Shown here in pieces: positions 11,520 to 60,068 of a DNA stretch of 64,000 nucleotides. This DNA comes from Spinacia oleracea. Taxonomy: Eukaryota > Streptophyta > Magnoliopsida > Caryophyllales > Amaranthaceae. The stretch lies in contig NC_079492.1 in the NCBI RefSeq assembly GCF_020520425.1, positions 66,517,671 to 66,581,670 of the forward strand, given 5' to 3'. Each line of letters starts with the position of its first letter. The stretch's first letter is position 1. The notes beneath the pieces are model-generated. The model saw only the letters and a program-made list of their open reading frames with translations, had not been told where the DNA came from and did no database searches. A program made the translations under genes and the position numbers.

Positions 11520-11533
11520 ATTGCTATTTTAGA

Positions 11534-27013: not shown

Positions 27014-27131
27014 TGCCATCAACCTTTCAATCTGATTCTATTTTCCTGGAACCCTTTTCCCCAATTCCAACAAACAATCCCTTTCTGTCTCTCCGAATTT
27101 TCTCTCTCTCTTTTGCTTCAATCGATCAACA

Positions 27132-38531: not shown

Positions 38532-40914
38532 ATGCCTAGGACTGGTCCTGCCACTTGGTGCCGATCAGGGAATCAACGGTTAGTGCGTCTCGAAGATACA
38601 TCACCAACATCAGGTTTAGTGACTCCAAGCTCCGTCCATCGTCCCTCATTTCAAGGATCTCCGCTTCCCCAACCTCGATTCGCACCTTCAAACATGTCCA
38701 TCGAAGATTTGCGAGACCAGATGGTCCAAATGACCCAACTTATGGGCCAACTGAAAATGGAAAATGAAAAACCAATACTTCTCCCTCGATCCTGAACCTT
38801 TTCCTGGCAAACTACCAGAAAAGTTCAGTTCATCTGACTTACCAAAGTTCAAGGCCACGGACAACCCCCGTGATCATCTACTGAGCTTTGTGAATACCAT
38901 GAACTTGAAAGGCGTGGACAAGTCCATGTATTTACCTGCCTTTCCTTTGTCCTTGGAACTATCACCAGGACCCTAAGCTCTTCCCCACTTGGGAAGACTT
39001 TGTCAATGTCTTCATCAAGCAATACTCGTCGAACATGGATTTCCAAGTTACCATGCGCGAGCTAGAAGTTCTCTTCCAAAAGAAAAACGAGGGTTTCACG
39101 ACCTACTTTGCTAGATGGAGGGACCAGGCGGCCCAGCTAATCAATAGGCCTCCCGAAACAGAATTGGTCCAAAAATTTATCGACAACCTGGACCCGGCTT
39201 ACAAACAACACCTTAGGTACCTGGGACTTGACACTTTCAAAAGAGCTTATGATGTGGGAATAAAGATCGAGGACGACCTCGCCAAAACCATACAGAGCAA
39301 ACCCACATATAAGACCAACACCTATAATCGGGGTAACACATCCCAAGCCCAAGAAGTCCATGCTGTAGAAGAGACTCCCGCCCGAAGAAACCCTGGAAGA
39401 TGGGTCCGAGACCGAAAGTTTGCCCCACTCGGGTCGACTTTGGTACAAGCCTTTGAAAGACTAACCAATCAAGGAAAGTTGAGACCTATAGGCCCCACCC
39501 GTGACCCTCCTGTCAAAAGCAAATATTGGGTCGAAGGTACTTACTGCAAATTCCATCAAGGAAGTGGGCATTACACTGAAAACTGCTGGAATCTAAAACA
39601 TATGATCCAGGACATGATAGAGGATGAAGTGATACCTCTCCCTAACGTTGGCAAACCCAACAACAACAAGAGCCCACTCGGCTCTTGTCACATCTCTCTC
39701 GACCAACCAGAGAATTTTGATCCCACGGTGTATATTACACCTCAAGGTGCACCACTCGCTGTGGTCCCTATGGATCGAATCGAGAGGGAAGTGTGCGGTG
39801 TGTGGAATGATGATGCTGAAGATATTTACCTATCTCAAGTCTCGGGCCAGGACCTCTTCACTGAAACTTGGCCTGGGTATGCTCTCATTGACACCACCCC
39901 CCCAGGAGCCCGAGGTCGACAACCTCACCCGATCCGGAAGGATATACCAACCGGATATTCACCCACCTCCTATGGACGACATCCCGGTTAGGCAAACTTC
40001 TGAGAATGGACGGCACGCCACCGTCACGGAAGTCATTGAAAATCCTCTCCTGAAACAACTAAAAAGAACCAAGGCCGAGATTACCATCTGGGATCTTATG
40101 TGTACTTCAAAGGAACATCGCGAAAAGCTTATTCGCTCACTTGACCTCATCTCAGTACTTACAGATATCACACCTGACTCATTGGTTAGCCATGTCACGA
40201 GAGATGCCGGAGAAAAGGCCATAGTTTTCACTGATAAAGACTTACCCAAAGAGGGGGGTGCTCACAATAAAGCCCTTTACCTAGTGGTTGGATGCAAAGG
40301 ACAAAACATCCCCCTAGCGCTCGTAGATAATGGTTCGGCGGTTAACGTCTGCCCATTGCGAACCGCCCATTACTTGGGGCTAGGAAACGATGACTTCCAA
40401 ACCTCCACGCAAGGGGTACGAGCTTATGATAACTCCCGAAGCCCTGTATTGGGAAAAATCAACCTTACCATACAAACCGGGCCTGTGGCACGCACCACGT
40501 AGTTTCAAATAATCCACATCAAGCCCACTTTCAACCTCCTCTTGGGGCGACCTTAGCTCCATGGCTTGGGAGGTGTGGCTTCTACCTTGCACCAAATGGT
40601 TAAACTTAACCATAACGGGGTAATACTAGAAATCCGCGCCCCTCCTCTCGACGTCAGTTGTACTATGGTTGGAACGGCCGAGACTGCAGACGATCTTTAT
40701 GGGTTTCAAATGGAAGAAACAATCCAGTTCATCGAAGATTATGATCCAGCATTCCTAGACCCGCATGCATCCCGAGTCATCCCTAGAATGCTGTTAGCTC
40801 AAGGTTATTTCCCAGGAACCCCATTGGGCATAAGGAAGAAGGAATACACATTCCATCCTTTTCCCGACAAATCTACTCCCTTTGGCTTAGGTTATGAACC
40901 AACGGAGGAAGATA
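38532..40914 (+). pseudogene. Gypsy Gag-protease, disrupted, cut by the CACTA
   Basis: Gag starts MPRTGPATWCRSGNQ (38532) and shifts frame near 38764-38795, again near 38975-39035 and at a C-run near 39895-39903. The capsid region, NMDFQVTMRELEVLFQKKNE to ATYFARWRDQ-like and FIDNLDPAYKQHL, is the Retrotrans_gag domain of Tat-type elements. A variant zinc knuckle reads CKFHQGSGHYTENC (about 39544-39587). Retropepsin follows, with active-site LVDNGSAVNVCP at about 40321-40356. LLGRP then meets a stop where tryptophan is usual (about 40553), and another stop lies at about 40500. The 40566-40914 frame continues without domains I recognise until the CACTA at 40915, and the same frame resumes at 56846. 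Gag forms the particle and the protease cleaves it; this copy can do neither. Confidence 0.85.
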
Positions 40915-40938
40915 CACTAGTGGAAAAAATACCTGTTG
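40915..40938. repeat. CACTA left terminal inverted repeat
   Basis: CACTAGTGGAAAAAA then TACCTGTTG; the right end reads the same on the minus strand except two mismatches (TA against CC). These ends are the transposase cleavage sites. Confidence 0.95.
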
Positions 40939-41265
40939 AGGGGGGCATTTTGGGTTTATTGAGGCGAACAAGGCCCGCTGCGACAGACGTAGCTTCAACA
41001 GCTCAGTGATCTGTTGAGGCGGGCTTTGTTCGCCTCAACAGGTGATCTGTTGTGGGGGGCTTTCAAAAGCCCGCCTCAAAAACCTCTACAGAAAGCGCGA
41101 AAATAAGGACCTGTTGAGGGGGGCATTTAAGAAGCCCGCCTCAACAGCCTCCTCTGTTGAGGCTCACTTCTTAAATGCCCCCCTCAACAGGTCCTTATTT
41201 TTGCGCCAAAAGTTCATATGTTGTTGAGGCGTACATTAAAAGCCCCCTTCAACAACATTAATTTT
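40937..41265. repeat. CACTA left subterminal repeats
   Basis: At least ten copies of TTGAGG(C/G)GGGC or its complement GCCC(G/C)CCTCAA, several as facing pairs forming hairpins (for example 41009-41040 and 41103-41142). In En/Spm elements such clusters bind the accessory protein TnpA. Function here is by analogy. Confidence 0.85.
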
Positions 41266-41269
41266 TTTT

Positions 41270-41779
41270 TTCCAAATTCTTTTAAAATATAAAATAGGCG
41301 GCAATAACCACAACTAGATATATACTCCATTGAGTATTGAAACCTGTACCCAATCAACACCAAAATAGCAAAGGTATGAATCTGCTTATCTTTGATAAAT
41401 AAATCATTACATTAACTTCATTTATATTAACCCAACAGAGCAAAGCGTATATATAGTACGTATGTTTACAATTTTTAAACACCTAGCTAGTCTAACAAAT
41501 TACAACTAATATTAACAACTAAAGACAAAAGGCTAGAGAGCTAATCTAACAAATGTCTCTAATCCAGCCACTTAGGTCCCTTTAGATCATGCATTACAAA
41601 CCTTAAGTAAGGTCGTGTTGACTTTCTTCCAATCGACTCGATCCCTAGCCTGCAAGTTGCATGGAAGGAAAATATATATGAGTACCAAAGTTTACACTCA
41701 CGATATTGTCTTTACATTCCATTGAAGCATAAAATTAAAAGATATAGTTGCAGACTATAGAGATAATTAAGTACGTTGT
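41270..41779. other. CACTA interior, no gene seen
   Basis: AT-rich sequence between the subterminal repeats and the 161-bp array. No coding signal. Confidence 0.6.
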
Positions 41780-44700
41780 TGACCTATAACGACCCAATGA
41801 GCCTTAAATGTGCATACGTAGATTAGAATGAGTTTTAGAAAGTTAAAGCTATGTATATTAGTAATGTAATAAGAATCAAATGAGTCCTTAGGTTCTTTAG
41901 TTCAAAGTTGGGAGCGGAAATGTCATTTTAGCTCTAAACATGACCTATAACGACATAATGAGCCTTAAATGTGCATAAATAGATTCGAATGAGTTTTAGA
42001 AAGTTAAAACTATGTATATTAGTCATGTAATAAGAATCAAATGAGTCCTTAGGTTTTTTAGTTCAAAGTTGGGAGCGGAAATGTCATTTTAGCTCTAAAC
42101 ATGACCTATAACGACCTAATGAGCCTTAAATGTGCATAAATAGATTCGAATGAGTTTTAGAAAGTTAAAACTATGTATATTAGTCATGTAATAAGAATCA
42201 AATGAGTCCTTAGGTTCTTTAGTTCAAAGTTGGGAGCGGAAATGTCATTTTAGCTCTAAACATGACCTATAACGACCTAATGAGCCTTAAATGTGCATAA
42301 ATAGATTCGAATGAGTTTTAGAAAGTTAAAACTATGTATATTAGTCATGTAATAAGAATCAAATGAGTCCTTAGGTTCTTTAGTTCAAAGTTGGGAGCGG
42401 AAATGTCATTTTAGCTCTAAACATGACCTATAACGACCTAATGAGCCTTAAATGTGCATAAATAGATTCGAATGAGTTTTAGAAAGTTTTAACTATGCAT
42501 ATTAGACATGTAATAAGAATCAAATGAGTCCTTAGGTTTTTTAGTTCAAAGTTGGGAGCGGAAATGTCATTTTAGCTCTAAACATGACCTATAACGACCT
42601 AATGAGCCTTAAATGTGCATAAATAGATTCGAATGAGTTTTAGAAAGTTTTAACTATGCATATTAATCATGTAATAAGAATCAAATGAGTCCTTAGGTTC
42701 TTTAGTTCAAAGTTGGGAGCGAAATTTCATTTTAGCTCTAAACATGACCTATAACGACCTAATGAGCCTTAAATGTGCATAAATAGATTCGAATGAGTTT
42801 TAGAAAGTTTTAACTATGCATATTAGACATGTAATAAGAATCAAATGAGTCCTTAGGTTCTTTAGTTCAAAGTTGGGAGCGGAAATGTCATTTTAGCTCT
42901 AAACATGACCTATAACGACCTAATGAGCCTTAAATGTGCATAAATAGATTCGAATGAGTTTTAGAAAGTTTTAACTATGCATATTAGACATGTAATAAGA
43001 ATCAAATGAGTCCTTAGGTTCTTTAGTTCAAAGTTGGGAGCGGAAATGTCATTTTAGCTCTAAACATGACCTATAACGACCTAATGAGCCTTAAATGTGC
43101 ATAAATAGATTCGAATGAGTTTTAGAAAGTTAAAACTATGCATATTAATCATGTAATAAGAATCAAATGAGTCCTTAGGTTTTTTAGTTCAAAGTTGGGA
43201 GCGGAAATGTCATTTTAGCTCTAAACATGACCTATAACGACCTAATGAGCCTTAAATGTGCATAAATAGATTCGAATGAGTTTTAGAAAGTTAAAACTAT
43301 GCATATTAGACATGTAATAAGAATCAAATGAGTCCTTAGGTTCTTTAGTTCAAAGTTGGGAGCGGAAATGTCATTTTAACTCTAAACATGACCTATAACG
43401 ACCTAATGAGCCTTAAATGTGCATAAATAGATTCGAATGAGTCTTAGAAAGTTAAAACTATGTATATTAATCATGTAATAAGAATCAAATGAGTCCTTAG
43501 GTTTTTTAGTTCAAAGTTGGGAGCGGAAATGTCATTTTAGCTCTAAACATGACCTATAACGACCTAATGAGCCTTAAATGTGCATAAATAGATTCGAATG
43601 AGTTTTAGAAAGTTAAAACTATGTATATTAGTCATGTAATAAGAATCAAATGAGTCCTTAGGTTCTTTAGTTCAAAGTTGGGAGCGGAAATGTCATTTTA
43701 GCTCTAAACATGACCTATAACGACCTAATGAGCCTTAAATGTGCATAAATAGATTCGAATGAGTTTTAGAAAGTTTTAACTATGCATATTAGACATGTAA
43801 TAAGAATCAAATGAGTCCTTAGGTTCTTTAGTTCAAAGTTGGGAGCGGAAATGTCATTTTAGCTCTAAACATGACCTATAACGACCTAATGAGCCTTAAA
43901 TGTGCATAAATAGATTCGAATGAGTTTTAGAAAGTTTTAACTATGCATATTAGACATGTAATAAGAATCAAATGAGTCCTTAGGTTCTTTAGTTCAGAGT
44001 TGGGAGCGGAAATGTCATTTTAGCTCTAAACATGACCTATAACGACCTAATGAGCCTTAAATGTGCATAAATAGATTCGAATGAGTTTTAGAAAGTTAAA
44101 ACTATGCATATTAATCATGTAATAAGAATCAAATGAGTCCTTAGGTTTTTTAGTTCAAAGTTGGGAGCGGAAATGTCATTTTAGCTCTAAACATGACCTA
44201 TAACGACCTAATGAGCCTTAAATGTGCATAATAGATTCGAATGAGTTTTAGAAAGTTAAAACTATGTATATTAGTCATGTAATAAGAATCAAATGAGTCC
44301 TTAGGTTCTTTAGTTCAAAGTTGGGAGCGGAAATGTCATTTTAGCTCTAAACATGACCTATAACGACCTAATGAGCCTTAAATGTGCATAAATAGATTCG
44401 AATGAGTTTTAGAAAGTTTTAACTATGCATATTAGACATGTAATAAGAATCAAATGAGTCCTTAGGTTCTTTAGTTCAAAGTTGGGAGCGGAAATGTCAT
44501 TTTAGCTCTAAACATGACCTATAACGACCTAATGAGCCTTAAATGTGCATAAATAGATTCGAATGAGTTTTAGAAAGTTTTAACTATGCATATTAGACAT
44601 GTAATAAGAATCAAATGAGTCCTTAGGTTCTTTAGTTCAAAGTTGGGAGCGGAAATGTCATTTTAGCTCTAAACATGACCTATAACGACCTAATGAGCCT

Positions 44701-44997
44701 TAAATGTGCATAAATAGATTCGAATGAGTTTTAGAAAGTTTTAACTATGCATATTAGACATGTAATAAGAATCAAATGAGTCCTTAGGTTCTTTAGTTCA
44801 GAGTTGGGAGCGGAAATGTCATTTTAGCTCTAAACATGACCTATAACGACCTAATGAGCCTTAAATGTGCATAAATAGATTCGAATGAGTTTTAGAAAGT
44901 TAAAACTATGCATATTAGACATGTAATAAGAATCAAATGAGTCCTTAGGTTTTTTAGTTCAAAGTTGGGAGCGGAAATGTCATTTTAGCTCTAAACA
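41780..44997. repeat. 161-bp tandem array, 20 copies
   Basis: Each unit starts TGACCTATAACGACCTAATG and ends AGCTCTAAACA. Starts at 41780, 41941, 42102, 42263 and 42424 give an exact 161-bp period; two single-base deletions shift later units. The last unit starts at 44837. Variants alternate between a few forms (AAAACTATGTATATTAGTC against TTTAACTATGCATATTAGAC), which suggests expansion by multi-unit duplication. No reading frame. Lies downstream of the stop of the Ulp1-domain gene. Confidence 0.97.
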
Positions 44998-45203
44998 GAA
45001 GCAAACAGAGGAGAAACACACAGATGGAAGTGAAATTCTAAAGACCACCAGATCAGAATTCACATGCAACAGCAGCAAGACCAGCAGATTAGTATTCAAA
45101 GCAATAAATTAGCAAATCCAGCAGACTTGTAATTATGGAAAAATTAAAGAACTTTACCAAATCCATGAAGATATAAACGCTTCCATCTTTGTGTCTAAAC
45201 AAC
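44998..45203 (-). other. 3' flank of the Ulp1-domain gene
   Basis: About 200 bases between the array and the stop codon, probably the 3' UTR of the minus-strand gene. No other feature. Confidence 0.5.
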
Positions 45204-48200
45204 CTAAGTAAATAAATACTCGGTTGTAAAAAACTTAGCCCATTGCTCACGAACCACATCTATTTCCTCATCGGTATAAGGCGCATTTCTTGGAGTGTAA
45301 GCCTGAAATAAGTAACATGATAAGTAATGCTACTTGTAAATTAAGAATTCTACTACGTAAAAGTACTAGTATTAGTAGTTCAACTAACATATGGTAAAAG
45401 AACGAACATTGTCTAACCGCTCATCAGTGTTATGGTGTAACGTGACTATTTCATGCATGAACTTCATAACGTAATAGCCACACTCGTGGGCGCCGACTTG
45501 TTGAGCACACTGATTTGGAGATAAATCATAAATTATATATCCAAGTAGTTACCCAAAAAAAAAAGTAAAGCTAATTAGTAAGCATGATATACCTTTACAT
45601 GGAAGCCTTTCAACCCCTGCATAGTCGCTCTATTCGGACAAATCCCATCATTAAACTTGTACACTTGGTATGCCCTGGAAGTTGAGTAAAACTTCATGAA
45701 TCTGATTCGGCACGAAAAGAAATAACTTAAAAAGAATTGAAAGTAACTTACAAACACAAGATTCCCCATGCACTATTTTCTCGGTTGGAACCTATCGCAG
45801 AGTCGAAAATATACGCACAACCTCTACGTAGGTCTAACACGTACAAAATCCAATGATTTCTGCATTATATATAAATGTTATTGCAACCTTATGCATGAAA
45901 ATAACAATAACATAGCTATTTACCAAATATCGATCAATCTCTAACACTTACTCTTGATGGTATGGGATCAAAAACCACTTGGTAATGTTAGGATCACCCT
46001 TCTTCTCCTTTTCAATTTCAGCATTGAAAACTACTTTCAAATACATTGATGCAGCCTGAGGGTTGGCCTTGATTCTAGAGCTTGACATTGCCTCGGGACA
46101 AACAAACCCAATCTGAGAGTTGTCAAATGCAAAGGTGTGTTCGTGGAATAAACACCTACAAAGTAAATGTATAATGCAAAAATTTCAAAAACTATTATAG
46201 TTGACAAAACCAAAAACAAAAATATCGATGGAAAAGTTTACATCATATAGACTTGGATCACTGAAATGTTGAGGCACGCCCCTCTAAGGAACTCTTCAAC
46301 GTCAACCTCATTTACATAAGTTTGTCGATCTTCGTCATAATGCCAAACCGAAGCGGGCAATGGGATTGAAGTATTTTTATATACATCACCGGGCGCCGTA
46401 TTGATGATAAACTTCAAATAATTGCATGATGGGCCAAGACCTTGAATTGTGTCGTCTGCCAAATTTTGCTTCTTACTTTTGGCGGCTGATTCTTCAGTTT
46501 TACGATCACAACTACCTACCATCTCTTTGGCCGTCTTAGAGTTCTTCGACTTCGATTTCGACTCCAACTTATTTGAGCATGAATTTCCCTGTAACAATAA
46601 TGTTAAGCTAGCATGAAAAGTTCAGTTTTGATTTCAGTGTTGAAGCACAGGGGAGTGGGAAGCATATGGTTTACCTTGGCCGTTAACTTCAGTGTTGTCT
46701 TCTCTTTGGACCCTAAATCAAGTGTTGCCTTCTCTTTGACAATTAATTCTGTTGTCTTATCTTTGACAACTAATTCTGTTGTCTTCTCTTTGACAATTAA
46801 TTCGTTTTTCTTCCCTTTGGAGCTACCAACCACCTCTTCAAAAATCTGACTCCTGGACTTCTTTGTTGGGCGTGGAGTAGAGTACTCCTAAACAGAGGTA
46901 GAAACCAAAGGAGTTCAAGGCTCTGAATCTAATTCTAAACAGATGCATAACGCAATGAATGACAATTAATAATAAAAAAGTTATACCTCGTCTTCTTCGA
47001 AAATCACCAAGTGAATTGGCCATTGCACAAAACTAGCAAGAGCCCTGCCTAAGTTATTGAATCCATCTCCAGTAGGTACCGGAAGAGTGTCATCATCATG
47101 TCCGTCGTAAATACAATCAACTTGGACCTTATAATGACTAGGCTTCATCGATCTAAAGTGTTGGTGCAACGAACCATCCAATGGGTACGCCATACCATCT
47201 GCCACTATCACTTTGTTACCCAAAACTTTATCCTCAAGGGCAAGACGACATGGAGTTATGGCCTTCACAAATAAATTTACAAAATTTCAGAAATCACTAC
47301 AAAGTACAATATTAAAAACCTAGCTAGGGGTGTTTTGAGTGTATGCACTATAGAGAATATATACCTTCAGCTCGCGTGGTTGCTGCGATGAACTCGGACA
47401 ACAGGTTACGAGTGCACGGTTAACATCAAACTCATCACTTACAAGAGCAGAATCAAGTGCGGGGGTAGAGAGGGTGTGTAGTTGACCGGTTGCTTTCAAT
47501 GTGGCTAGTTGGTTTTGGAGGGCCTCCGCCACCTTTCTCTCTAATTGATCTTCAAACTCCCTTCTCACCGAAGCTCTGATTGATTCGATAGCCTCCGGTG
47601 ATGGTTCAATATGGCCACATCTACTACTTCGGTCTATTGGACCGAAAGCAACTTTGTAACCGACATTAACTCCACCTGTTGCCTTGACACGCCCACGGTG
47701 ATCCTTTTTTCCCATAGCCTTGGTGAGGGCATCTTCTCCCTGGGTGAATGAAATATTTCCTTTTCCCTCTTCTTCTATGTACTCCAACTATAAGAATTAG
47801 GAAAGTAAAAATTAGATGGTATACATGATGGAAAGGAGAAGCAATCTTAGCAATAGAACTAGGAATTAGGAAAGAAAAGGATATAGAACGTAAAATTTCA
47901 TATGCACTTACAGCCATCTTAGCAATATTTACGGCTTCTTTATCATTCGGGTCAACTTCCCACTTTCCCTCTTTGTTTTTAACTTGATGAGCCAAGATCC
48001 ACTCTACTGATCTAAACTTCTTAAATCTATCTGGCGCTGTGGTGAGTGATGAGGTCACTGAGGAGGAGCCACTTGAGAGGGTTAAAGCTGCCTCTGGCGG
48101 TAGTCGCCCATCATTTATCCACTCTGGTCTCTTTCTAACATAACCCTTTTGGCCTGTGCGATGTGGGTGCTTGTTTTGTAATGCACTTTTACTTGCTTTT

Positions 48201-48936
48201 TCTCTACGAACCTGTCAAAAAACACATAAAGAACATGTCGAACATTTAAAGATGGCAACAACAAACTAATCATATAATTATATAAAAAAATATCTAGCAA
48301 AGTAAATTCATTATTACCAACATCTCCGGCTTGTTTCGTTCTATCACAAATGTTTTCCAATCATCCTCTGTGATTTGATGGTAGATGTCCCAAGGCATGT
48401 CATTTGTCTGATGTTTCGGCATTTTTTCTTTCTTAGTTATCCAACGCCGCGTTAACCTGGACTTGAAAGCTCCAAAGCGTTTCGCCACACACATATGAAA
48501 ATATTTTTCTCTCCTTTTAGCCGGATCATCAATAATGTGGAACAGAAGCTGTTAATTTTATGGATAAGAGATTGTTAGAAACGTATGCTACACAAATAGA
48601 TAATCTAGGAGAATACAAATCAAGTTTTTATTCAATGTTTACCTTGGTCTCCTCCCAAAACCCCTTCTTTGTGTGTTCATCTAACGTTGAATATTCTTTC
48701 ACATTAATGTTAATTCTAGCAGCACAAGACCCAACTTGCTTCCCGTATTCTCCTGACCATTCTCCATCGGGGATTCCATATTGATTATACTGAAGATGCA
48801 TAGGCTTTTTGGCTTGAACTCCTTTTGACGGACCACGGAATTTGGTCTTTTTACTAGTGTTGGTACCTTGTGATTCCCCCGTAGGATGACTAGCTCCATC
48901 AATTCCCTGTATTTCATTATCACGATGATCATCCAT
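45204..48936 (-). CDS. CACTA accessory protein with Ulp1-type (C48) cysteine protease domain, 12 exons
   Basis: Exons on the minus strand, in order: 48936-48643, 48548-48318, 48211-47912, 47787-47365, 47262-46987, 46887-46675, 46588-46242, 46155-45952, 45859-45752, 45674-45593, 45509-45408, 45302-45204. All introns are GT..AG and all phases agree, giving 893 codons with the stop. The start is MDDHRDNEIQG. Residues ~30-275 resemble the plant En/Spm (Ptta) transposase family (QYNQYGIPDGEWSGEYGKQV; WDIYHQITEDDWKTF). Residues ~340-385 are a probable coiled coil, ~417-508 resemble DUF8039, ~509-600 are Lys/Glu/Thr-rich. The C-terminus is the protease: H765 (NHWILYVLD), D782 (YIFDSAIG), Q830 and C836 (HECGYYVM), in the H-D-Q-C order and spacing of Ulp1. 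Ulp1 enzymes cut SUMO from proteins; the role in transposition is unknown. No defect seen. Confidence 0.85.
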
Positions 48937-49130
48937 GGTAGCTACGGTCCTGCAACAAAGAAAAGAGAGCAATACTTAGTAAAGGGAGCAATACTTAGAA
49001 AAGAGAGCAAAATGCTACAATTGGCCATTTACAAAGCTATACCTAAAATAATGGCCTTATGGTATTACACCTAACATGCAAAACAATCCCAAATCAAACC
49101 TCACCTAAAAAAACAACCCAAAAAAAATCA
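48937..49130 (-). promoter_or_regulatory. Probable 5' leader of the Ulp1-domain gene
   Basis: A good acceptor (TTGCAG) lies about 17 bases before the ATG, which suggests a non-coding first exon upstream. Part of this leader (49007-49146) is duplicated at 49477-49618, so the upstream exon or promoter may exist twice. Confidence 0.4.
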
Positions 49131-49618
49131 TAACTCACCAGTTCTACGAGATCAATGCACAGAACTGATCAGAACTGACCAGTTCTGTGCACTGATCTGC
49201 ACAGTTCTGATCTGAGCTGTGCAGATCAGTGCACAGAACTGATCAGAACCTGACCAGTTTTGTGCACTGATCTGCACAGTTCTGATCTGAGCTGTGCAGA
49301 TCAATGCACAGAACTGATCAGAACTGACCAGTTCTGTGCACTGATCTGCACAGTTCTGATCTGAGCTGTGCAGATCAGTGCACAGAACTGATCAGAACTG
49401 ACCAGTTCTGTGCACTGATCTGCACAGTTCTGATCTGAGCTGTGCAGATCAGTGCACATAACTGCACAGTTCTGGGCAAAATGCTACAATTGGCCATTTA
49501 CAAAGCTATACCTAAAATAATGGCCTTATGGTATTACACCTAACATGCAAAACAATCCCAAATCAAACCTCACCTAAAAAAACAACCCAAAAAAAAAATC
49601 ATAACTCACCAGTTCTAC
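49007..49618. repeat. Direct duplication of a 140-bp block with a palindromic array between
   Basis: GCAAAATGCTACAATTGGCC.. to ..CATAACTCACCAGTTCTACG at 49007-49146 recurs at 49477-49618 almost unchanged. The space between is filled by ~74-bp TGATCTGCACAG units. Confidence 0.9.
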
Positions 49619-50000
49619 GCACTGATCTGCACAGCTCAGATCAGAACTGTGCAGATCAATGCATAGAACTGATCAGAACTGACCAGTTCTGTGCACTGAT
49701 CTGCACAGTTCTGATCTGAACTGTGCAGATCAATGCACAGAACTGATCAGAACTGACCAGTTCTGTGCACTGATCTGCACAGTTCTGAACTGAGCTTTGC
49801 AGATCAGTGCACAGAACTGATCAGAACTGACCAGTTCTGTGCACTGATCTGCACAGTTCTGATCTGAGCTGTGCAGATCAGTGCACAGAACTGATCATAA
49901 CTGACCAGTTCTGTGCACTGATCTGCACAGTTCTGATCTGAGCTGTGCAGATCAGTGCACATAACTGCACAGTTCTGATCAGTGCATATTCCTTGTGCTA
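49147..50000. repeat. Palindromic ~74-bp tandem array (left arm)
   Basis: Units of CTGATCAGAACTGACCAG, TTCTGTGCACTGATCTGCAC and AGTTCTGATCTGAGCTGTGC then AGATCAGTGCAC. Each unit is itself near-palindromic through GTGCACTGATCTGCACAG / CTGTGCAGATCAGTGCAC. Short open frames through it (49528-49719 plus, 49804-50031 minus) are repeats (DQNCAVMCTDLHSS) and not genes. Confidence 0.95.
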
Positions 50001-50215
50001 CTTGCAGTTCTCGTGGATTGATAAAATGCAATATATGTCAAATTTGATTCCTGGTCTAATTTGATGATTCTGGAGTTCAAATCTTCACCTTCAAACATGT
50101 AAATTACACCATACTGTAAGCAAAGTATCAAATTGTAAACAAAGTCATCTTCAAAACGGTTTTTATGTACTTATCCATCATCAACCACCAGAAAGCAAAC
50201 ATCAGAAACTAAGTT
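49603..50215. repeat. Left arm of the inverted repeat around the TNP2 gene
   Basis: Reverse-complement match to 54110-54720. From the inside out: the pair TTTCTGATGTTTGCTTTCTG / CAGAAAGCAAACATCAGAAA, then the GTAAATTACACCATACTGTA region, the palindromic array, and AACTCACCAGTTCTAC. The arms are about 0.6 kb each; the spacer is about 3.9 kb. Confidence 0.9.
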
Positions 50216-50682
50216 ACCAATCACAAAGCCATGCAAACAAGAACAGGTAATTGATATTATTAGACAAAATGTACTGAAAACTAACCTAGGAAAATTCAAC
50301 TGCAATTTCTGCAACCTGTGCTTGGAACCTGGCTCACATAAGAGGATACGACATTCACCAAGTTTACACCTGTGTGAAAAAACCAGATAAAGTTAGTCAA
50401 GTTATTAGAAGTATCAGACTCTCAGTAACTTAAATAGGAGGGATAAAGTAGGAGACTATCACTGCAATTCCTCTTCACAATACAAGTGGCAATTGATTGG
50501 GGTTGAATTTTTAGAAAAAAAATATGAATTAATATCCACAAGTATCCTTCACTATTCAAATTTAAGTAGTCAAGATAACAAAAATTCCAAGGCGCACAGG
50601 CTTTCAGATATGAATAGAAAGAACAAAGTCAAAAACTTCAACAATGCATCAGAAGTGAAGCCCGAACTTACACATGTATGTT
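50216..50682. other. Downstream flank of TNP2
   Basis: AT-rich, between the left arm and the TNP2 stop codon. Probably the TNP2 3' UTR and terminator region; nothing else seen. Confidence 0.5.
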
Positions 50683-53600
50683 TCAATTACGATTCGTAAC
50701 CCATATTCCTTCCGTATGATCTGTACGCATATGATTAGTATTATTTGCATCCTCCTCTTCTGGCAATGGTTGAACAACCATTGGTAACGGAGGTGTGTCA
50801 TCATACTCATCATACTCATCTTCATCTACAACATCATCAATACCCAAAATATGTCTTTTTCCTTGGGCAACAACACGCCATCTAGGATCAATATTGTCAA
50901 CCACATAAAAAACTTGCTTAGCTAGTGATGCTAGAATGAATGGCTCGTCACTGTCACTTAGTCGATCAAAATTCACCAAGGTTAAACCCGGGAAAATTTC
51001 ATCTCGCTTCACACCATTTTGGTTGTTAGCCCACTGACACCGAAAAACAGGGATCACAAAATAGGTATAATCAAGCTCCCATATTTCTTCGATAACACCA
51101 TAATATGATTGTGTTGAATCAACCGGCCTTTTATCCTTAGCGCTTGCATAGACCCTAGATGATGCAACAACCTTTACTCCACTATTTTGCACTACACTCT
51201 TTTCATCTTGCCTTCTAGTGTAGAATGTGAACCCATTGATATCATATCCTTCAAAAGATCGAACACATAGTCGAGGACCTCGAGATAACCACTTGATCGT
51301 ATCAGAAACATCATGGTCTTGTTTCTTTCCAACTTCCTTCTTAAACCATTCAATAAATGTGCGATTATGTTCCCGCATCAACGCTCTTTCCTTCAACTTA
51401 GGATTACAATGTTGAAATTCAAGCAGATGCTTTTCTAAATAAGGATGAACCTCTGTAAGATGCTGCAACACACAAAGATGTGCCTTCTTCTTCCTCTCCG
51501 ATGGAGGAGATATCACATTTTTACCAATTACTCCCTCCCCTGCGAGCCTACCAACATGTCGAGATTTTGGAAGTCCTATTGGTTCAAGGCTTGACAAAAA
51601 CTCAGCTAGATATCCAGAAATCTCTTCTTTAAGGACTCCCCGAATGATACTACCCTCTGGATTAGCCGGATTCCTTGCTTTGTCCTTTAAAGTCTTAAAA
51701 AATCTCTCAAAAGGATACATCCATCTTAAGAACACCGGACCACATAACTTGACTTCGCGAACTAAATGGACAATCAAATGCACCATTATATCAAAGAAAG
51801 AAGGCGGAAAATACATTTCAAATCGACATAGAGTTTCAACAACATCATTGTGCAAAGCATCCAAAGTCTCCGGATCAATCACCTTAGCACATATGGAATT
51901 GAAAAACAAACAAAGTTTTGTTATAACATGTCTCACGTGTTTCGGCAATATCCCACGAAGTGCAATTGGCAAAAATACATTAATCAGTGCATGACAATCA
52001 TGAGACTTCATACCAATCAACCTAAGGTCCGAGAGAGACACTAGGCGCTTAACATTCGACGAATATCCCGAGGGAACCTTAATGCCATGTAAGCACTCAC
52101 AAAACTTCTTCTTCTCCTTTCTCGACATTGTGTAACACGCTGGAGGCAGAAAGGTCTTTGTACCATCCTTTTTTTTAACAGGCCACAAATCTGGTCGAAT
52201 ATTCTTCTTTTTCATATCTTTCCGCACATTCTCATTGTCCTTGGTCTTTCCTGGTATGTTTAGCAAAGTCCCGATGATAGCATCGCACACATTTTTCTCA
52301 ATGTGCATTACATCGAGACAATGCCTAACCGACAAATCTTTCCAGTAGGGAAGATCCCATAATGGAGACACTTTCTTCCATAAAACACCCTTTTTAGACT
52401 TGGACTTGAAGCACTTACCGTATTTGGTTTCAACATTTTTGATACGTTCATAAACTTGTGATCCTGTCAAAGGTGTACGAGCTACTCCTTCCTCGGTGAA
52501 CCCATTGAATTCCTTCTTCTTCTTACGATAAGGATGATATCGACTAAGGTGCTTCCTGAAATCTGGGTAGATATTTTTCTTGAAATGATCCAACCGTGTG
52601 GGCTTCATGTCCTCTTCACATATAGGGCATGCTTGTTCTCCTTTGGTTTTGTACCCAGACAAGTTTCCATAGGCCGGAAAATCATTTATGGTACAGAAAA
52701 CCATTGCCCGCAATGTAAAGTTTGAGTTGGTGTGAGCATCGAACATTGGAACACCTTCATTCCACAACAATTTCAAATCATCTATGAGTGGAGCGAGATA
52801 CACATCTATATCATGTCCTGGCTGCTTAGGCCCTGAGATGAGGAGTGACAACATGATATACTTGCGTTTCATACACAACCATGGAGGAAGATTGTAAATT
52901 GCAAGAAGAACCGGCCAAGTGCTATGCTGACTACTCAGAGAGCCGTATGGATTCATCCCATCTGTACATAGAGCAAGTCTCAGATTTCTAACCTCCTTGC
53001 CAAATTCAGGATACTTCTTATCAATAGTTCTCCATTGAGGAGAATCAGCCGGATGTCTAAGGAATTCATCTTTCTTCCTCCCTTCCGCATGCCACCTCAG
53101 ATACTTAGCATTCTTCTTTACGGAGAACAAGCGCTCAAACCTAGGTATGATCGGAAGATACCACAATACCTTGGCGGGCGGTCCCCTCTTAGCTGAATTG
53201 GCCCCTTTACGCTTGTAACGCGACATAGAACACGTTGGACACTTATCCAAATTTTCATACTCTTTTCTGTAAAGAATACAATCATTTGGGCAAGCATCTA
53301 TCTTGACGGCCTCTAAGCCTAAGGGATTCGTCAATTTGTTGGCATAATAGGCAGAGGTGGGAATGTCATTGCCATCGGGAAACCAAAGACCTAGTCGTTT
53401 CAATAATTTCGTGAAACTTTCTTCGGTCCAACCACTCTCCGCTTTCAAGTTGGAAAGTGATGCCACACATTCTAACAATTTGAATTTTGTACACCCAGGG
53501 TACAAAGGCGTCTCAGCAGCCTTTAATACCTGCTCGAGTATGTGAGGTCGTTCATTCAAGTGATCTTTCACCGCATCCATCATTTCATTTATTTCATTAT

Positions 53601-53970
53601 CTTCTTGCTCATCATCATCCATCTCATTATTCTCAGAAATATCAGAATCACTCTCATCACTCTCATCACTCTCTGCCAGAACATCAAATTCATTCACACT
53701 AGAACTTGGACGATCAAGTATTTTCTCACCATGCCAAAACCAGACATGGTAATCTTGCTTAAACCCACGACGAAATAAATGATCCTCAATTTCATCAATA
53801 TCAGCTAACCGCCTTACATTGTTACAATCACGGCAAGGACAATAGATCTTTGCGGCTTTCGTATTCCGTTGGTGTGCTAAAGCACATCTAAGGAACTCCT
53901 CAACCCCACTCAAGTATTCCACCGTAGTATGGTCACCGTACATCCAACGACGACTCATTTCTAATAACAC
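50683..53970 (-). CDS. TNP2-type CACTA transposase
   Basis: Single open frame of 1,095 codons; the first ATG is at 53970 and the fifth codon (53958, MSRRWMYGDH) is the more likely start. TNP2/TnpD-like proteins bind and cut the element ends. Order: transposase-associated domain at about 5-85 (SRRWMYGD, YCPCRDCNN, HLFRRGF, YHVWFWHGE); Transposase_21 region at about 225-620 (ACPNDCILYRKEYENLDKCP, FNGFT, CPICEEDM, SVRHCLDVMHIEKNVCDA); DUF4218 at about 660-800 (MKSHDCHALI, FEMYFPPSFFDIMVHL, FLRWMYPFERFFKTLK); DUF4216 at about 955-1040 (YYGVIEEIWELDY, PVFRCQW). The ends are acidic (residues 102-140 and 1057-1085). No frameshift or stop and no intron, whereas many TNP2 genes have introns. It sits between inverted repeats. 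It looks functional on paper. Confidence 0.93.
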   Translation of the reverse strand: MLLEMSRRWMYGDHTTVEYLSGVEEFLRCALAHQRNTKAAKIYCPCRDCNNVRRLADIDEIEDHLFRRGFKQDYHVWFWHGEKILDRPSSSVNEFDVLAESDESDESDSDISENNEMDDDEQEDNEINEMMDAVKDHLNERPHILEQVLKAAETPLYPGCTKFKLLECVASLSNLKAESGWTEESFTKLLKRLGLWFPDGNDIPTSAYYANKLTNPLGLEAVKIDACPNDCILYRKEYENLDKCPTCSMSRYKRKGANSAKRGPPAKVLWYLPIIPRFERLFSVKKNAKYLRWHAEGRKKDEFLRHPADSPQWRTIDKKYPEFGKEVRNLRLALCTDGMNPYGSLSSQHSTWPVLLAIYNLPPWLCMKRKYIMLSLLISGPKQPGHDIDVYLAPLIDDLKLLWNEGVPMFDAHTNSNFTLRAMVFCTINDFPAYGNLSGYKTKGEQACPICEEDMKPTRLDHFKKNIYPDFRKHLSRYHPYRKKKKEFNGFTEEGVARTPLTGSQVYERIKNVETKYGKCFKSKSKKGVLWKKVSPLWDLPYWKDLSVRHCLDVMHIEKNVCDAIIGTLLNIPGKTKDNENVRKDMKKKNIRPDLWPVKKKDGTKTFLPPACYTMSRKEKKKFCECLHGIKVPSGYSSNVKRLVSLSDLRLIGMKSHDCHALINVFLPIALRGILPKHVRHVITKLCLFFNSICAKVIDPETLDALHNDVVETLCRFEMYFPPSFFDIMVHLIVHLVREVKLCGPVFLRWMYPFERFFKTLKDKARNPANPEGSIIRGVLKEEISGYLAEFLSSLEPIGLPKSRHVGRLAGEGVIGKNVISPPSERKKKAHLCVLQHLTEVHPYLEKHLLEFQHCNPKLKERALMREHNRTFIEWFKKEVGKKQDHDVSDTIKWLSRGPRLCVRSFEGYDINGFTFYTRRQDEKSVVQNSGVKVVASSRVYASAKDKRPVDSTQSYYGVIEEIWELDYTYFVIPVFRCQWANNQNGVKRDEIFPGLTLVNFDRLSDSDEPFILASLAKQVFYVVDNIDPRWRVVAQGKRHILGIDDVVDEDEYDEYDDTPPLPMVVQPLPEEEDANNTNHMRTDHTEGIWVTNRN

Positions 53971-54109
53971 AAGGTTTTACACAGAATTAGATAAATCAAG
54001 CCACAAATTCTTAATTTTGACACAAGAACTATACTAGCTTGGCATAAGATCTTTGTTCTCTAATGATGCAATCTTAATTTTGACACACGAACTATACTAG
54101 CTTAGTTTC
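53971..54109 (-). promoter_or_regulatory. Upstream region of TNP2
   Basis: About 140 bases between the ATG and the right inverted-repeat arm. Contains a short direct repeat (CTTAATTTTGACACAAGAACTATACTAGCTT / CTTAATTTTGACACACGAAC..). No TATA box stands out, so the promoter may lie in or beyond the inverted repeat. Confidence 0.35.
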
Positions 54110-54720
54110 TGATGTTTGCTTTCTGGTGGTTGATGATGGATAAGTACATAAAAACCGTTTTGAAGATGACTTTGTTTACAATTTGATACTTTGCTTACAG
54201 TATGGTGTAATTTACATGTTTGAAGGTGTAATTTACATGCATGAAGTACTGTTTTAGCTTCTCAGTGCACTGATCAGTTCTGTTCTGTGCACTGATCTGC
54301 ACTGCCCAGATCAGAACTGTGCAGATCAGTGGACAAAACTGATCAGAACTGTGCAGTTATGTGCACTGATCTGCACAGCTCAGATCAGAACTGTGCAGAT
54401 CAGTGCACAGAACTGGTCAGTTCTGATCAGTTCTGTGCACTGATCTGCACAGCTCAGATCAGAACTGTGCAGATCAGTGCACAGAACTGGTCAGTTCTGA
54501 TCAGTTCTGTGCACTGATCTGCACAGCTCAGATCAGAACTGTGCAGATCAGTGCACAAAACTGGTCAGTTCTGATCAGTTCTGTGCATTGATCTGCACAG
54601 CTCAGATCAGAACTGTGCAGATCAGTGCACAGAACTGGTCAGTTCTGATCAGTTCTGTGCATTGATCTGCACAGTTCTGATCTGAGCTGTGCAGATCAGT
54701 GCGTAGAACTGGTGAGTTAA
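54110..54720. repeat. Right arm of the inverted repeat around the TNP2 gene
   Basis: Inverted match of 49603-50215, including about six near-palindromic units with GTGCACTGATCTGCACAG. Ends at GTAGAACTGGTGAGTT. Confidence 0.9.
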
Positions 54721-54751
54721 AAAAAACTAAGATTTGGTTTTAAGTCCAAAC

Positions 54752-54940
54752 CTTGGTCTGATGGCTGATTCTTCTATTGCAAAATGAGGAATAGATGGAT
54801 ATAAGGAAGACAGGGTTGAATAGCTTGGTCTGAAGTTCCTCGAGAACTGGCACCAAGAAGCATAAAACAGAACATCTACACAGTCCTGATTGAGGTTGTA
54901 CACCAAATGCAGCGCTTTTTGCAATGATGCTTCATCTCCC
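54752..54940 (-). pseudogene. Captured exon of a 5'-adenylylsulfate reductase-like (APRL) gene
   Basis: On the minus strand an exon runs from after TTTTCAAG (acceptor, about 54941) to the donor CCAAG/GTTTGG (about 54751). It reads GDEASLQKALHLVYNLNQ, then VDVLFYASWCQFSRNFRPSY, then SSLYPSIPHFAIEESAIRP. This is the thioredoxin-like core of plant APR-like proteins, where a single active cysteine (YASWC) replaces CxxC. Intact splice sites show that genomic DNA, not cDNA, was copied. Only this exon is recognisable, so it is a gene fragment, in the same orientation as TNP2 and upstream of it. It could be spliced into a chimeric RNA. Confidence 0.85.
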
Positions 54941-55493
54941 TTGAAAATTAGAAGTAAGCAAATGCTATTAGATTTAGTTGAAAAGTAACAGAAAGGAAAA
55001 AGCTCCACATAAAATAACATAGCTATAGAATCTCCTAATTTGGTTATTAAAGTCCTTTCTTAAGTTAAATATCAAACCACAGTTTGTTTCCATGCAACAT
55101 GATGGATAACTGAATGAGCCCCTATGCATGCAACTATGCAAGAGTTAAGCTACAAGCACCTGGCACTACTCATACTCAGCCATAGTCAAAAGCCTTGTAA
55201 GTAGAACTAGTTAATATGAGACTGGTCCTCGGCAAAGGAAGAGGCACGGAGGTTTGCTGCGGACTGTGCATACATTTTCAAATTTTGACAGGTGCTCGAC
55301 GACCTGGCTTGATTAAATTTTTAACCAAGAAACAAAAAAAGACTAAAAAAATCTCTAGGGGGGCAGACTAGTTTTTTTCACACCGTTAACATAATACTTG
55401 CAATAAAGAAGTGTTTACAATCTGCGTTATTATCAGATACTGTAGCAGGCTATATCAGGTACACCAGCTGGTTGCATCAGGTACACCAGCTGG
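54941..55493 (-). other. CACTA interior between captured exons
   Basis: AT-rich and intron-like. A short direct duplication (TCAGGTACACCAGCTGGTTG, about 55455-55495) lies beside the MATE fragment. No other exon recognised. Confidence 0.5.
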
Positions 55494-55673
55494 TTGAGCT
55501 GCTGCGAGCCCAAACCACAGACCGATAAATCCAACCTTGACCGAAAATGCCATAACAACTAGTACAGGCAATGCAACCAAGTAGAAGGTGACAAAGTTTA
55601 TTGTTGCACCTATTTTAGTCCTTGTTGAACCTGTCAAAGCCCCACAGGCAGTTGTCTATGGACAGTTTCCGAT
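55494..55673 (-). pseudogene. Captured exon of a MATE (DTX) efflux transporter gene
   Basis: On the minus strand an acceptor (TTTTGTGAG, about 55674) is followed by GNCP, a TAG stop where glutamine is normal, then TTACGALTGSTRTKIGA and NFVTFYLVALPVLVVMAFSVKVGF, then GLWFGLAAAQ. This matches the exon of plant MATE transporters of the DTX48-51 type that carries the GNCPQTT..CG motif and the next membrane helix. The family exports organic solutes across the plasma or organelle membranes. The stop near 55656-55658 shows decay or lack of selection. After GLAAAQ the sequence diverges (PAGVPD) at a short duplication. A fragment only, on the same strand as the other captured exon. Confidence 0.85.
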
Positions 55674-56334
55674 CTCACAAAACCCCAGAATAGGAACTCA
55701 ACAATAGCAAGAGCAATATTGTAGCATAATAAAAATGGAACTAAAAGAACTTGAAAATCAAAGCAGCAGCAACAACAGTCTCCACTGTCATACATCAGAA
55801 TATTGTAGATAAGCGTGTACAAAAAACATCACAATATACTATAGTGAATACATCAAGCTATGGTAATTTTAGAGCCTATAAAGCTACAATCCAATATCAA
55901 CGATTAGTTTACATCATTAATAAACTATCAATATTACAATGAACACATGAGTATATTTTATGCAGACATATTTTCAACAGATTCATATCGATTCGCTCCA
56001 CTTAAAAGTTCAAACACTTCATTTCATCTGCATACTTTGGATCGAGCTACTCACATAGCTTACATAAACCATCACCATAAAAGAGACCTTCATCATTTAG
56101 ACACAAAACCCATATCACTAACTTCTATTTTGTAACTGAACTAGAAAAATTTAACCTAACATCTATTTTGTAACTGAACTAGAAAAACCACAAATATCAA
56201 ACCCTAATTTGTAAATTCATCCAATATTGAAACATTAGCCTAAATTCTCTGCATAATCAACTCATTATGCTCAACTAATTGAAGAGAAACTGAATTTTAA
56301 GACCAAGCAAAACAAGAATCAATTATAACCTAAC
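55674..56334 (-). other. CACTA interior, intron-like
   Basis: AT-rich. Directly repeated TAACATCTATTTTGTAACTGAACTAGAAAAA pieces (about 56125-56185) are the only internal structure. No coding signal. Confidence 0.5.
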
Positions 56335-56560
56335 CTTGATATATTGCGGCACTGTGTGAAACAGAGTCAACCGAGATAGGGAAGACGACGGTGGGGAAAC
56401 TCTCCTTCAGATGGTGGTGGTGGAGCCGCGCGGTGAGGAAGGTGGTGGTGGTGGTTATGGTGGTGGTGGAGTCGCGCGGTGAAGAGAAGAGATGTGAAGA
56501 GAAGAGAAGTGAAGAGAAGAGAAGCTTATCGATCTGTACGTTTGGCGGTGGTTTTATTTT
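56335..56560 (-). promoter_or_regulatory. Leader-like exon near the right end of the CACTA
   Basis: On the minus strand a CT-rich and CCACCACC-rich segment ends at ATATCAAG/GTTAGG, a good donor at about 56334. This looks like a 5' UTR first exon and could start transcripts reading leftward through the captured exons and TNP2. It may be the original TE promoter or a third captured fragment. Confidence 0.45.
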
Positions 56561-56574
56561 TTTAAAATTTAATG

Positions 56575-56818
56575 TAGCCTATTGAGGCGGGCAATTAAAA
56601 GCCCCCTTCAACAGATAGACCCTATTGAGGCGGGCAATTAAAAGCCCCCTTCAACAGCTTCTATCTATTGAGGCGGGCAAGTAAAGCCCCCTTCAACAGC
56701 TTCTGTAGAAGCGAACACTAAAAAAGCCCGCCTCAACAGAATAGTAAAATATTTGACCCGCGTTGACTAAGTAGCTATTGAGGCGCGCTTATGTATGCCC
56801 CCCTCAACAAGGGGGCTA
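56575..56818. repeat. CACTA right subterminal repeats
   Basis: Four to five units of CTATTGAGGCGGGCAATTAA followed by AAGCCCCCTTCAACAG, as facing pairs, plus a final pair next to the terminus. The same motif as at the left end. Confidence 0.88.
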
Positions 56819-56842
56819 CAACAGGGGTTTTTTCCACTAGTG
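56819..56842. repeat. CACTA right terminal inverted repeat
   Basis: On the minus strand CACTAGTGGAAAAAA then CCCCTGTTG, matching the left end with two mismatches in 24. Followed by the ATA duplication. Confidence 0.95.
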
Positions 56843-56845
56843 ATA

Positions 56846-57330: not shown

Positions 57331-58679
57331 GCCACATAGAGCACCATTAGTAAAAAGCGCCTAGTAGTTCTTTAGATTGATAGAAAAAAATAATAGAGAC
57401 TTTAGATGGTCCTAAGGCCCCTTAGAATATGGGTCAGTTTTATTTCAGTGTGTTTTCCTTACTTTCCGAATCAATAAAGGCGTAACATTTCTCCTAAAAA
57501 TTTTATTCTAACACTAAATAAACACCAAATGTACTTGCAAAATACAAAAATAAAGAGGCGGCCCACTCTAGGCCCAACAAACAAAGCCCACTCGGTTTTG
57601 AAATAGTGCCATGGGAACCAATTCCCGAAACCCACAAAATAAACCACACTATCCCATTCATATCCCCAAAACCTAAAAAGCCAACCAGTGTCATCATAAG
57701 AGCCAATCCATGCAACCCAAAATCAAAGGAAATCAAAAATCCAAAACAATGCAAATGTTACCAAAAAAAATAGATTCATAAAACATAGATTCCATCATAC
57801 CCTTCGCTAACAACCCACCTCCAAAGCCTATACAAAGGTCTTCATAACTTCCGCATCCTAACTCCATTTTCAAAACTGTTTCGAGTCACCAATAGAAAAA
57901 AATTAATCCGGACAAAAATGCGTTTCACGCTAACAGTCAAACAAGCCTCCAAAATAGCCTCAAAATTAACTTTAAGTACGAGCGAAATATCAAGGCGCAA
58001 AAAAAAGAAAAAGAAATAAACGCAAGAACATGTGAAGCAAAGCGTCAAAAATTGACCGCCCAAGTCATTTTTAGCGCCCAGGGCTGGGCGCCGAAATTTC
58101 TGACGCCCCAGCCTGGGCGTTGAAACTCTCTGCCTGCCAAAAGTTTTCTTTTCGAAAGTGCTCGCCATTTTATCCGCACACAACGGAAAAATAACGAACA
58201 CTTGGGGGGGTTCAGTACGTATCCAAATAGGTTTACCAAGAATATAGCTATACAAATTAGTCGAATTTTACGCGAGAACGGCAAAAAAAGAGAACGGCAG
58301 ATGAAAATAAAGATAATACTTCACTCATTTGACCGATCAAGTAATATGTTTCCACCTCAGGGCATATCTACCGAAATCCGGCATACTAGAACTTATTCTA
58401 AAGCTAGAACTACGCGCGACCTGATTCTGACAAGATACGTAGGCAATCCTTACCAAGGATTCGGTCCAACTGAAATAAAAAAGGGCACCTACACCCTAGC
58501 AAGAACTACACTACTCTAGTTCTTCCGGATCATCAAATAAAGTCTTGTAGAGAGCAATGTTCGCAGGATCCACCCCCACAGTCTTCTGCGCTGCCCCAAT
58601 ATCAATCTCCATAAGAACCGGCTCCTGGACACTAACTTCCAAAGATGTCAAGGCTTCAGAAACATTCTCAATTATAGCC
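57331..58679 (+). other. 3' non-coding region of gypsy copy B
   Basis: Contains a paired palindrome (58064-58123) and the 58170-58510 segment homologous to 1-340. No gene; frames at 57842-58519 are translations of non-coding element sequence. Ended by the copia-family LTR at 58680. Confidence 0.7.
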
Positions 58680-60068
58680 TGTTAGGTTATGATACATATG
58701 ACAATTCATAAATCATGCGGAAAAACCATAAAGCCAGGAAAGCATATTATTTACACATAATCATTTAGCATAGTTTAGATGCATACACTTTGTTGCGTGC
58801 CCTCCCTAGCTGCGCCCGAACCGAACAAGTACAAGTCTTTAGGACTCCAAGTGTCGTCCCTCCGTAGATAGTCCACAGCACATCCGGATCCGCCTTAAGC
58901 TTGACCAACTAGGATCGCCCTTAAGGTACTTAGAATTTTCGGCTAATGTAGGCAATTATATGACTGAATTTTTGCTCTCAAAAATCACTTTGAATACTTG
59001 AATACTCTATACAAAATAATGACCCTAGGCCTTTATTTATAGAGGTATGAAAAGGGAATCGTAATCCTATTAGGATACGAATTAATTAAACTAGAATCCT
59101 AATAGAATTCTTATTTAATTAATTCATCCTTTTAGGTTTAGGAATTTAGTCGAAACCTGATAGCTTTAGGATTCGTATAGCACACCAACACACATGCAAG
59201 CACAGCAGCCCACGAGGGGCGCCATGCGCGCGCGCACAGCCCGCGAGCTCGCAGCCCATTGCTGCGAGGCCCACACGCTGCCGCAGCGTTGGCGCGCACT
59301 GGGCCTGCCTTGCGGTGGGCCTGGCGCAGCCTTGGCTGGTGCGTTGTGGCGCGCTGGCTTGCTGGGCGATGGCCCGGCTTCGTGCTGGGACTTCGTCTGG
59401 CAGGCCTCGTCCGATGCTAATTCGTACGATACGCTTCCGATTAATTTCCCGATTCCGGAATTCATTTCCGATACGAACAATATTTAATATTTCCGATTCC
59501 GGAACTAATTTCCGTTTCGAACAAATATTTAATATTTCCGTTTCCGGAATTATTTTCCGATTCCGATAATATTTCCGATTCTGACAATATTTCCGTTTCC
59601 GGCAATATTTCCGATTCCGGCAATATTTCCATTTCCGATAATATTTTCCGATACGTACCATGTTTCCGTTTCCGGCAACATCTACGACTTGGATAATATT
59701 TATATTTCCGATACGATCCATATTTCCGTTTCCGGCAATATCATCGTTTCCGGAGCATTCATTTCTTGCCTGTGACGATCTCAGCTCCCACTGAAACCAA
59801 GATCCGTCGATTCCGAATATCCATAGATGGAGTATTTAATGCCATTAAATACTTGATCCGTTTACGTACTATTTGTGTGACCCTACGGGTTCAGTCAAGA
59901 GTAAGCTGTGGATTAATATCATTAATTCCACTTGAACTGAAGCGGCCTCTAGCTAGGCATTCAGCTCACTTGATCTCACTGAATTATTAACTTGTTAATT
60001 AATACTGAACCGCACTTATTAGACTTAACATAGAATGCATACTTGGACCAAGGGCATTATTTCCTTCA
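58680..60068 (-). repeat. LTR of decayed copia-derived element, copy 2
   Basis: TGTTAGGTTATG..TTCCTTCA as read on the plus strand, 1,389 bp; the reverse complement matches 17095-18518. It carries the TTCCGATTCCGG minisatellite (59430-59760) and a GC-rich block (59210-59410). Being next to the polypurine tract, it is the 3' LTR of a minus-strand element. Confidence 0.9.

Follow-up and report, generated by a model that had tools for sequence, protein, structure and literature searches.

A CACTA transposon inside a gypsy retrotransposon

We analysed a 64-kb stretch of the spinach (Spinacia oleracea) genome, referred to here as the window, which lies on contig NC_079492.1 (C6 in the following) and contains a CACTA-type DNA transposon of 15,928 bp at positions 40915-56842. 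The element sits within a gypsy retrotransposon and carries two genes, a TNP2 transposase gene and a second gene whose C-terminus matches a Ulp1-type peptidase domain. Both genes are on the minus strand, and transcription runs from the right end towards the left end. The features of the element and its insertion site are as follows, in window positions.

38909-39991, plus strand: gag frame of the gypsy host (Retrotrans_gag, E = 4e-6)
40912-40914: target-site duplication ATA, left copy (single ATA at empty gypsy sites)
40915-40929, plus strand: left terminal inverted repeat, CACTAGTGGAAAAAA; 3' end in the sense of transcription
40930-41244: left subterminal region with GCCCGCCTCAA-type repeats
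41780-44997: 161-bp tandem array, 20 units, 97% matches
45204-48936, minus strand: second gene, 12-exon model, 892 amino acids, GT..AG introns, no stop or frameshift
48936-48643, 48548-48318, 48211-47912, 47787-47365, 47262-46987, 46887-46675, minus strand: exons 1-6 of the second gene, from high to low
46588-46242, 46155-45952, 45859-45752, 45674-45593, 45509-45408, 45302-45204, minus strand: exons 7-12 of the second gene, from high to low
49149-49983: 74-bp tandem arrays between the two genes, in blocks 49149-49464 and 49598-49967
50079-50216: inner arm of an inverted repeat around TNP2, 97.8% to 54234-54098
50683-53958, minus strand: TNP2 transposase gene, one coding exon, 1,091 amino acids from the Met at 53958
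54098-54234: other inner arm of the inverted repeat around TNP2
54282-54719: 74-bp tandem array on the upstream side of TNP2, in the opposite orientation to 49602-49983
56578-56827: right subterminal region, also with GCCCGCCTCAA-type repeats
56578-56704: 43-bp tandem units in the right subterminal region
56828-56842, minus strand: right terminal inverted repeat, exact reverse complement of CACTAGTGGAAAAAA; 5' end in the sense of transcription
56843-56845: target-site duplication ATA, right copy (single ATA at empty gypsy sites)

A sequence-only reading of this DNA had described an intact-looking CACTA transposon of about 15.9 kb nested in a gypsy element, with identical 15-bp ends, an ATA target duplication, subterminal repeats at both ends, two full-length coding regions free of defects, and a host reading frame continuing in phase on either side. 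This description was borne out on every point. The four features of the CACTA (En/Spm, CMC) superfamily that could be tested, namely the termini, a 3-bp duplication, a Transposase_21 domain and subterminal repeats, were all found. The inverted termini agree at 15/15 bases between the left and right ends and are flanked directly by the two ATA copies. The subterminal repeats are present in both orientations at the element ends. The 10-mer GCCCGCCTCA, counted on either strand, occurs seven times in the termini (330 + 300 bp) and not once in the interior, while in 200 base-by-base shuffles of the termini any 10-mer reaches at most two copies. The left subterminal region also includes a palindrome of 87.5% at 41095-41206.

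The history of the insertion can be read from the host. The gypsy frame is open to 40913 (..EED) and resumes in phase at 56845 (IADRL..). With the 400 bases left of the element as query, the best 40 of 1,442 candidates were scored, the window's own included; of the 39 gypsy copies other than the window's, the 10 best were read over 200 bases at the matching point. All ten paralogues were uninterrupted at this point, with one ATA, and ran on into the window's right flank, differing from the joined flanks at 2-4 positions per 200 bases. These empty sites prove that the CACTA element inserted into the gypsy element. A second long terminal repeat (LTR) of the gypsy host was not recognised within the window. 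Two direct repeats of ~1.47 kb, at 4676-6146 and 35842-37303, are 92.7% identical and are probably LTRs of one gypsy family; the repeat at 35842-37303 may be the host's left LTR.

TNP2 is encoded by an open frame without stop at 53976-50683 (minus strand), with the first Met taken at 53958. Its product matches the Pfam domains Transpos_assoc, Transposase_21, DUF4218 and DUF4216, and the match to Transposase_21 (PF02992) covers the whole profile length at E = 3e-88; among solved structures, it had no relative at E up to 0.1. The model of the second gene joins minus-strand open segments through eleven GT..AG introns. The C-terminus of the predicted protein matches Peptidase_C48 (Ulp1) at E = 8.8e-10 and aligns weakly to the solved SENP1, SENP2 and Ulp1 (best E = 0.0039). 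In the alignment to SENP2, the His, Asp, Gln and Cys of its HW..DS..QQ..CG motifs stand in order and in place, and we take these four to be the catalytic residues of the Ulp1/SENP cysteine proteases (C48). The first 392 amino acids showed no match to Transposase_24 or any other Pfam family at E up to 10.

Copies of the element in the spinach genome

We searched 894,210,420 bases in 242 contigs (six contigs of 115-189 Mb among those seen) for further copies. A search for the same ends, which the sequence-only reading had proposed as a check, returned such copies: the best 40 of 484 candidates for the left end were all at least 99% identical, and five of these 40, the window's included, had the full score, while the second 40 rows were the same places matched to the palindromic part. 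When TNP2 DNA was the query, the best 40 of 997 candidates all matched over the full length at 100% after rounding. With the TNP2 protein, the best 42 of 2,431 candidates were all at least 99% identical, 39 of them without a stop and three with one. These copy counts are lower bounds, and 39/42 applies to the best matches and not to the family-wide intact fraction. One place, C6:34597147, has a span one base longer; it is in the TNP2 DNA list but absent from the protein list.

The ten best TNP2 DNA matches, the window's own included, were read over 20 kb each (individual copies are denoted by c and a number). Both genes were uninterrupted in 8/10, with an open TNP2, all 12 exons and intact splice sites. 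Both ends lay within the stretch read in 6/10, with the duplications ATA, CTA, ACA, TTT, AAA and CCA. As for the other four, the left end of c7 was missing from the stretch read, and the array of this copy passes into other sequence; c4, which includes 7,500 N, showed neither end; c6 had no right end; and c8 had neither end, its left end being listed 19 kb from TNP2. For the other 30 TNP2 copies, reading was confined to 301 bases at the expected position of the right (3') end, which was found there in 12. Identical 3-bp duplications were present in 11/13 copies with both ends read. The copy at C2:75799000 has such an identical duplication, yet it is one of the three with a TNP2 stop. The many distinct insertion sites are indirect evidence that would point to transposition. 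The best-matching copy, on C23, was considered as the same locus assembled twice, which was rejected because its flanks and its duplication (CTA) differ. Window positions 58679-59842 match sequence near c1, c6, c8 and c9 at about 86-91%.

Some left ends lie close together. Two of them on C3 (L092 and L091, at 140289251 and 140526897) lie 238 kb apart on opposite strands with an identical 20-base flank, and are probably one insertion later duplicated in inverted orientation. On C5, three left ends lie within ~200 kb (at about 120.57, 120.65 and 120.77 Mb), and each has a different left flank over the 10-25 bases inspected; these are perhaps local jumps. Among the 38 chromosomal left ends there were three neighbouring pairs less than 250 kb apart, where 0.39 would be expected (p about 0.008). 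Since one of the three pairs is the duplicated insertion, this clustering speaks only weakly for local jumps on C5.

The copies also differ in the 161-bp array. Its units were counted by an exact 14-base landmark in the six full-length copies, giving 20 in c0, 20 in c1, 14 in c2, 22 in c3, 39 in c5 and 7 in c9; one interval of double length in the c2 array indicates a unit without the landmark. The six copies, despite having 7-39 units, are 99.78-99.96% alike in the rest of their sequence. Unit types follow the same order in the window copy and the C23 copy except for two units, and the differences from the others consist of internal loss (c9), internal duplication (c3) and expansion of a short pattern (c5). 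The arrays of the window copy and c9 have 20 and 7 units, although these two copies differ at four sites over the 10.6 kb compared outside it. The 161-bp arrays change fast between young copies. The unit had no match to other parts of the element in a self-comparison.

The 74-bp arrays on either side of TNP2 stand in opposite orientation and are 98.4% identical over 382 bp. Together with the 138-bp inner arms, they form an inverted repeat that encloses TNP2. Nine of the ten copies read over 20 kb have the inverted pair of arrays around TNP2; in the tenth, the broken copy c6, the only match found was 58 bp long. A read-through transcript over the arrays and arms could fold into a long hairpin.

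Several other features were noted in the window. An inverted repeat pair at 15010-17679 and 59490-62123 is about 90% identical. Judged by eye from their translations, a long open frame at 27036-28103 (plus strand) looks like a TFIIB-type factor, another at 33511-34992 (plus strand) looks nucleoredoxin-like, and a run of frames at 10746-14716 (plus strand) resembles a LINE with endonuclease and reverse transcriptase.

A recent burst and the status of the window copy

Divergence was measured in eight copies over up to 10,617 columns outside the arrays, with c4 and c7 lacking part of them. Thirty-six substitutions were private to one copy and three were shared, all three by c2 and c5. These star-like differences are those of a recent burst from one source, within which there is perhaps one older or separate branch. 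Copy c2 has 17 private substitutions, and the other seven copies together have 19, or about 2.6e-4 per site. With a plant substitution rate of 7e-9 per site per generation, the burst would be a few tens of thousands of generations old, as an order of magnitude only. The window copy itself has two private substitutions, one of which alters an amino acid of TNP2: at codon 854 of the frame it has a private F, against L in 9/9 other compared copies.

Coding differences amount to 13 non-synonymous and three synonymous changes in total, of which six and one, respectively, fall in TNP2 (10 copies) and seven and two in the second gene (8 copies). Under neutrality, fractions of 0.69 non-synonymous, 0.27 synonymous and about 0.04 nonsense are expected, with transitions weighted 4 to 1. 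The observed differences are near this expectation, so selection since insertion is not needed to account for the open frames. The intact genes mainly reflect the youth of the copies and not visible selection since they inserted, and in the element from which the burst arose both genes were very probably open.

Taken together, these results lead us to regard the window element as a complete, coding-competent CACTA transposon inserted in a gypsy element and as one among many nearly identical copies produced by a recent burst, a reading to which we assign a probability of about 0.88. The copy is young and complete, and potentially autonomous. TNP2, a TNPD-like transposase, would cut at the CACTA ends and insert the element at a target cut with a 3-bp stagger. 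The GCCCGCCTCAA-type motifs near both ends are putative binding sites that would bring the ends together. In En/Spm, bringing the ends together through repeat motifs is the role of the second protein. The second gene here may fill this role at the repeat motifs, and its Ulp1-type domain would be a SUMO-type protease.

Several observations weigh against this reading. The second gene is broken in 2/10 copies read at length (c6 and c8). These ten were the best TNP2 matches, a choice that favours intact copies. No 3' end was found in the expected 301-base stretch of 18/30 further TNP2 copies, which may be shifted or truncated there. The duplication is absent in 2/13 copies, whose left ends are changed in their first bases and whose two flanking triplets are unlike each other. 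Some members of the family are thus shifted, truncated or damaged. Moreover, the exon model of the second gene is a prediction by splice-site scoring, consensus polishing of a long-read assembly could inflate the near-identity, and the window copy may be less active than its siblings, given its private TNP2 missense change.

This last point leads to an alternative that we take seriously, at somewhat under even odds: the window copy may be structurally complete but inactive, either silenced or impaired in TNP2, and moved, if at all, by its siblings in trans. The private F at codon 854 would fit such a copy, as would double-stranded RNA, which the inverted 74-bp arrays around TNP2 could yield, and the gypsy element is a likely methylated setting; codon 854, however, lies outside the four matched Pfam domains. 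The sequence-only reading had suggested that few CACTA copies in a genome keep both genes and that this one could be the autonomous driver of its family. Its unbroken genes and its perfect ends and duplication are what one would look for in a single driver, but 39 of the 42 top-scoring TNP2 copies are free of stops and 8/10 copies read at length keep both genes. The supposition that copies with both genes are rare does not hold in this genome. Within the star-like set of copies, the window copy is a tip with two private substitutions and not an ancestor, and there is no sign that it was the source. It is not special within its family, and we reject the idea of a single driver, which is scarcely credible in view of the many intact copies and the star-like divergence.

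Could the near-identity or the intactness be an artefact of assembly or polishing? Polishing can homogenise repeats, and the spinach Monoe-Viroflay assembly was made from PacBio reads with CANU and the Arrow program (PMC8668906). Yet the copies stand at different flanks with their own 3-bp duplications (11/13), and they differ in array length and private substitutions, which leaves such an artefact a very slim chance. A further alternative concerns the second gene, which by analogy might encode a VANC-like anti-silencing factor that works through the non-coding tandem arrays of the element. The non-coding tandem repeats to which VANC proteins bind undergo contraction and expansion (PMC10398659), and some VANC genes have a Ulp1 domain (PMC13317346); array length also varies between young copies here. 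The N-terminal 392 amino acids of the second gene, however, match no Pfam family, and CACTA and VANDAL are different superfamilies, so that we hold a VANC-kind factor to be improbable. The broader conjecture, in which the Ulp1-bearing second gene and the fast-changing 161-bp and 74-bp arrays would together make up a sequence-specific anti-silencing system, comparable to VANC and its repeats in VANDALs, and would have enabled the burst of dozens of coding-competent copies, is in our view equally a long shot. The complete, coding-competent product of a recent burst is the reading that we retain.

Relation to described elements and meaning of the family

En/Spm of maize has CACTA ends, a 3-bp duplication, subterminal repeats and a TNP2/TNPD-type transposase, as does the element described here. 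Unlike En/Spm, the spinach element has a separate 12-exon second gene with a Ulp1-type domain and large tandem arrays. The closest described element is Jozin of Chenopodium (PMC8978399). At the end of the spinach element, the first 15 bases are identical to the printed C. sosnowskyi sequence, and the bases after them differ; the first gene of Jozin is about 3.3 kb with the same four domains; in its Type 2 architecture, the second gene carries Peptidase_C48; and some quinoa elements have a 171-bp satellite array near the 3' end (PMC8978399). In the sense of transcription, the 161-bp array of the spinach element has the same position. One satellite-bearing quinoa Jozin of 16.5 kb is close in size to the element in the window, whereas the complete elements described there have 8.3-10.1 kb against 15,928 bp here (PMC8978399). 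The 12-bp subterminal motif reported in this source is of the TATTTGTAAC / TATTTGCGTC type, in contrast to the GCCCGCCTCAA type of spinach, in which the most repeated terminal 10-mers are GCCCGCCTCA and its relatives. Because the subterminal motif differs, we regard the spinach element as a relative of Jozin in kind and do not file it as Jozin. A relationship of the 161-bp unit to the quinoa satellite was also considered and rejected: the unit is no closer to the printed quinoa monomer than shuffles are, since 43/200 shuffles of the unit reach its score (the monomer used has 169 letters, though printed as 171 bp).

Two other systems share parts of this organisation. Cactavine (CACTA-ULP) of grapevine, likened here by its description (PMC2528002), is a CACTA element with TNP2 and a Ulp1-like region, but CACTA is termed the less active superfamily in grapevine in a section heading of that paper, whereas dozens of near-identical copies are present in spinach. 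VANDAL and KIU elements of Arabidopsis resemble the spinach element in the Ulp1-domain gene of some members (PMC13317346) and in rapidly changing non-coding tandem repeats (PMC10398659); they differ in being Mutator-like and not CACTA, and in that anti-silencing is reported there and is conjecture here. In the portions available of the literature searched, which included two spinach repeat surveys that give totals for CACTA (EnSpm) elements (PMC6337768, PMC7840529), we found no description of this element, and none of the titles listed concerned a CACTA element of spinach.

The family deserves attention for its burst of coding-competent copies, its variable internal satellites and its Ulp1-type second gene. 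This young family has, within a single genome, at least 39 transposase frames free of stops and several complete copies with both genes, and it offers a good setting for studying how a large DNA transposon evades silencing. Further questions are whether the Ulp1-type second gene contributes and how the internal satellite arrays grow and shrink. Insertion differences among resequenced spinach accessions could directly mark recent movement of the family.

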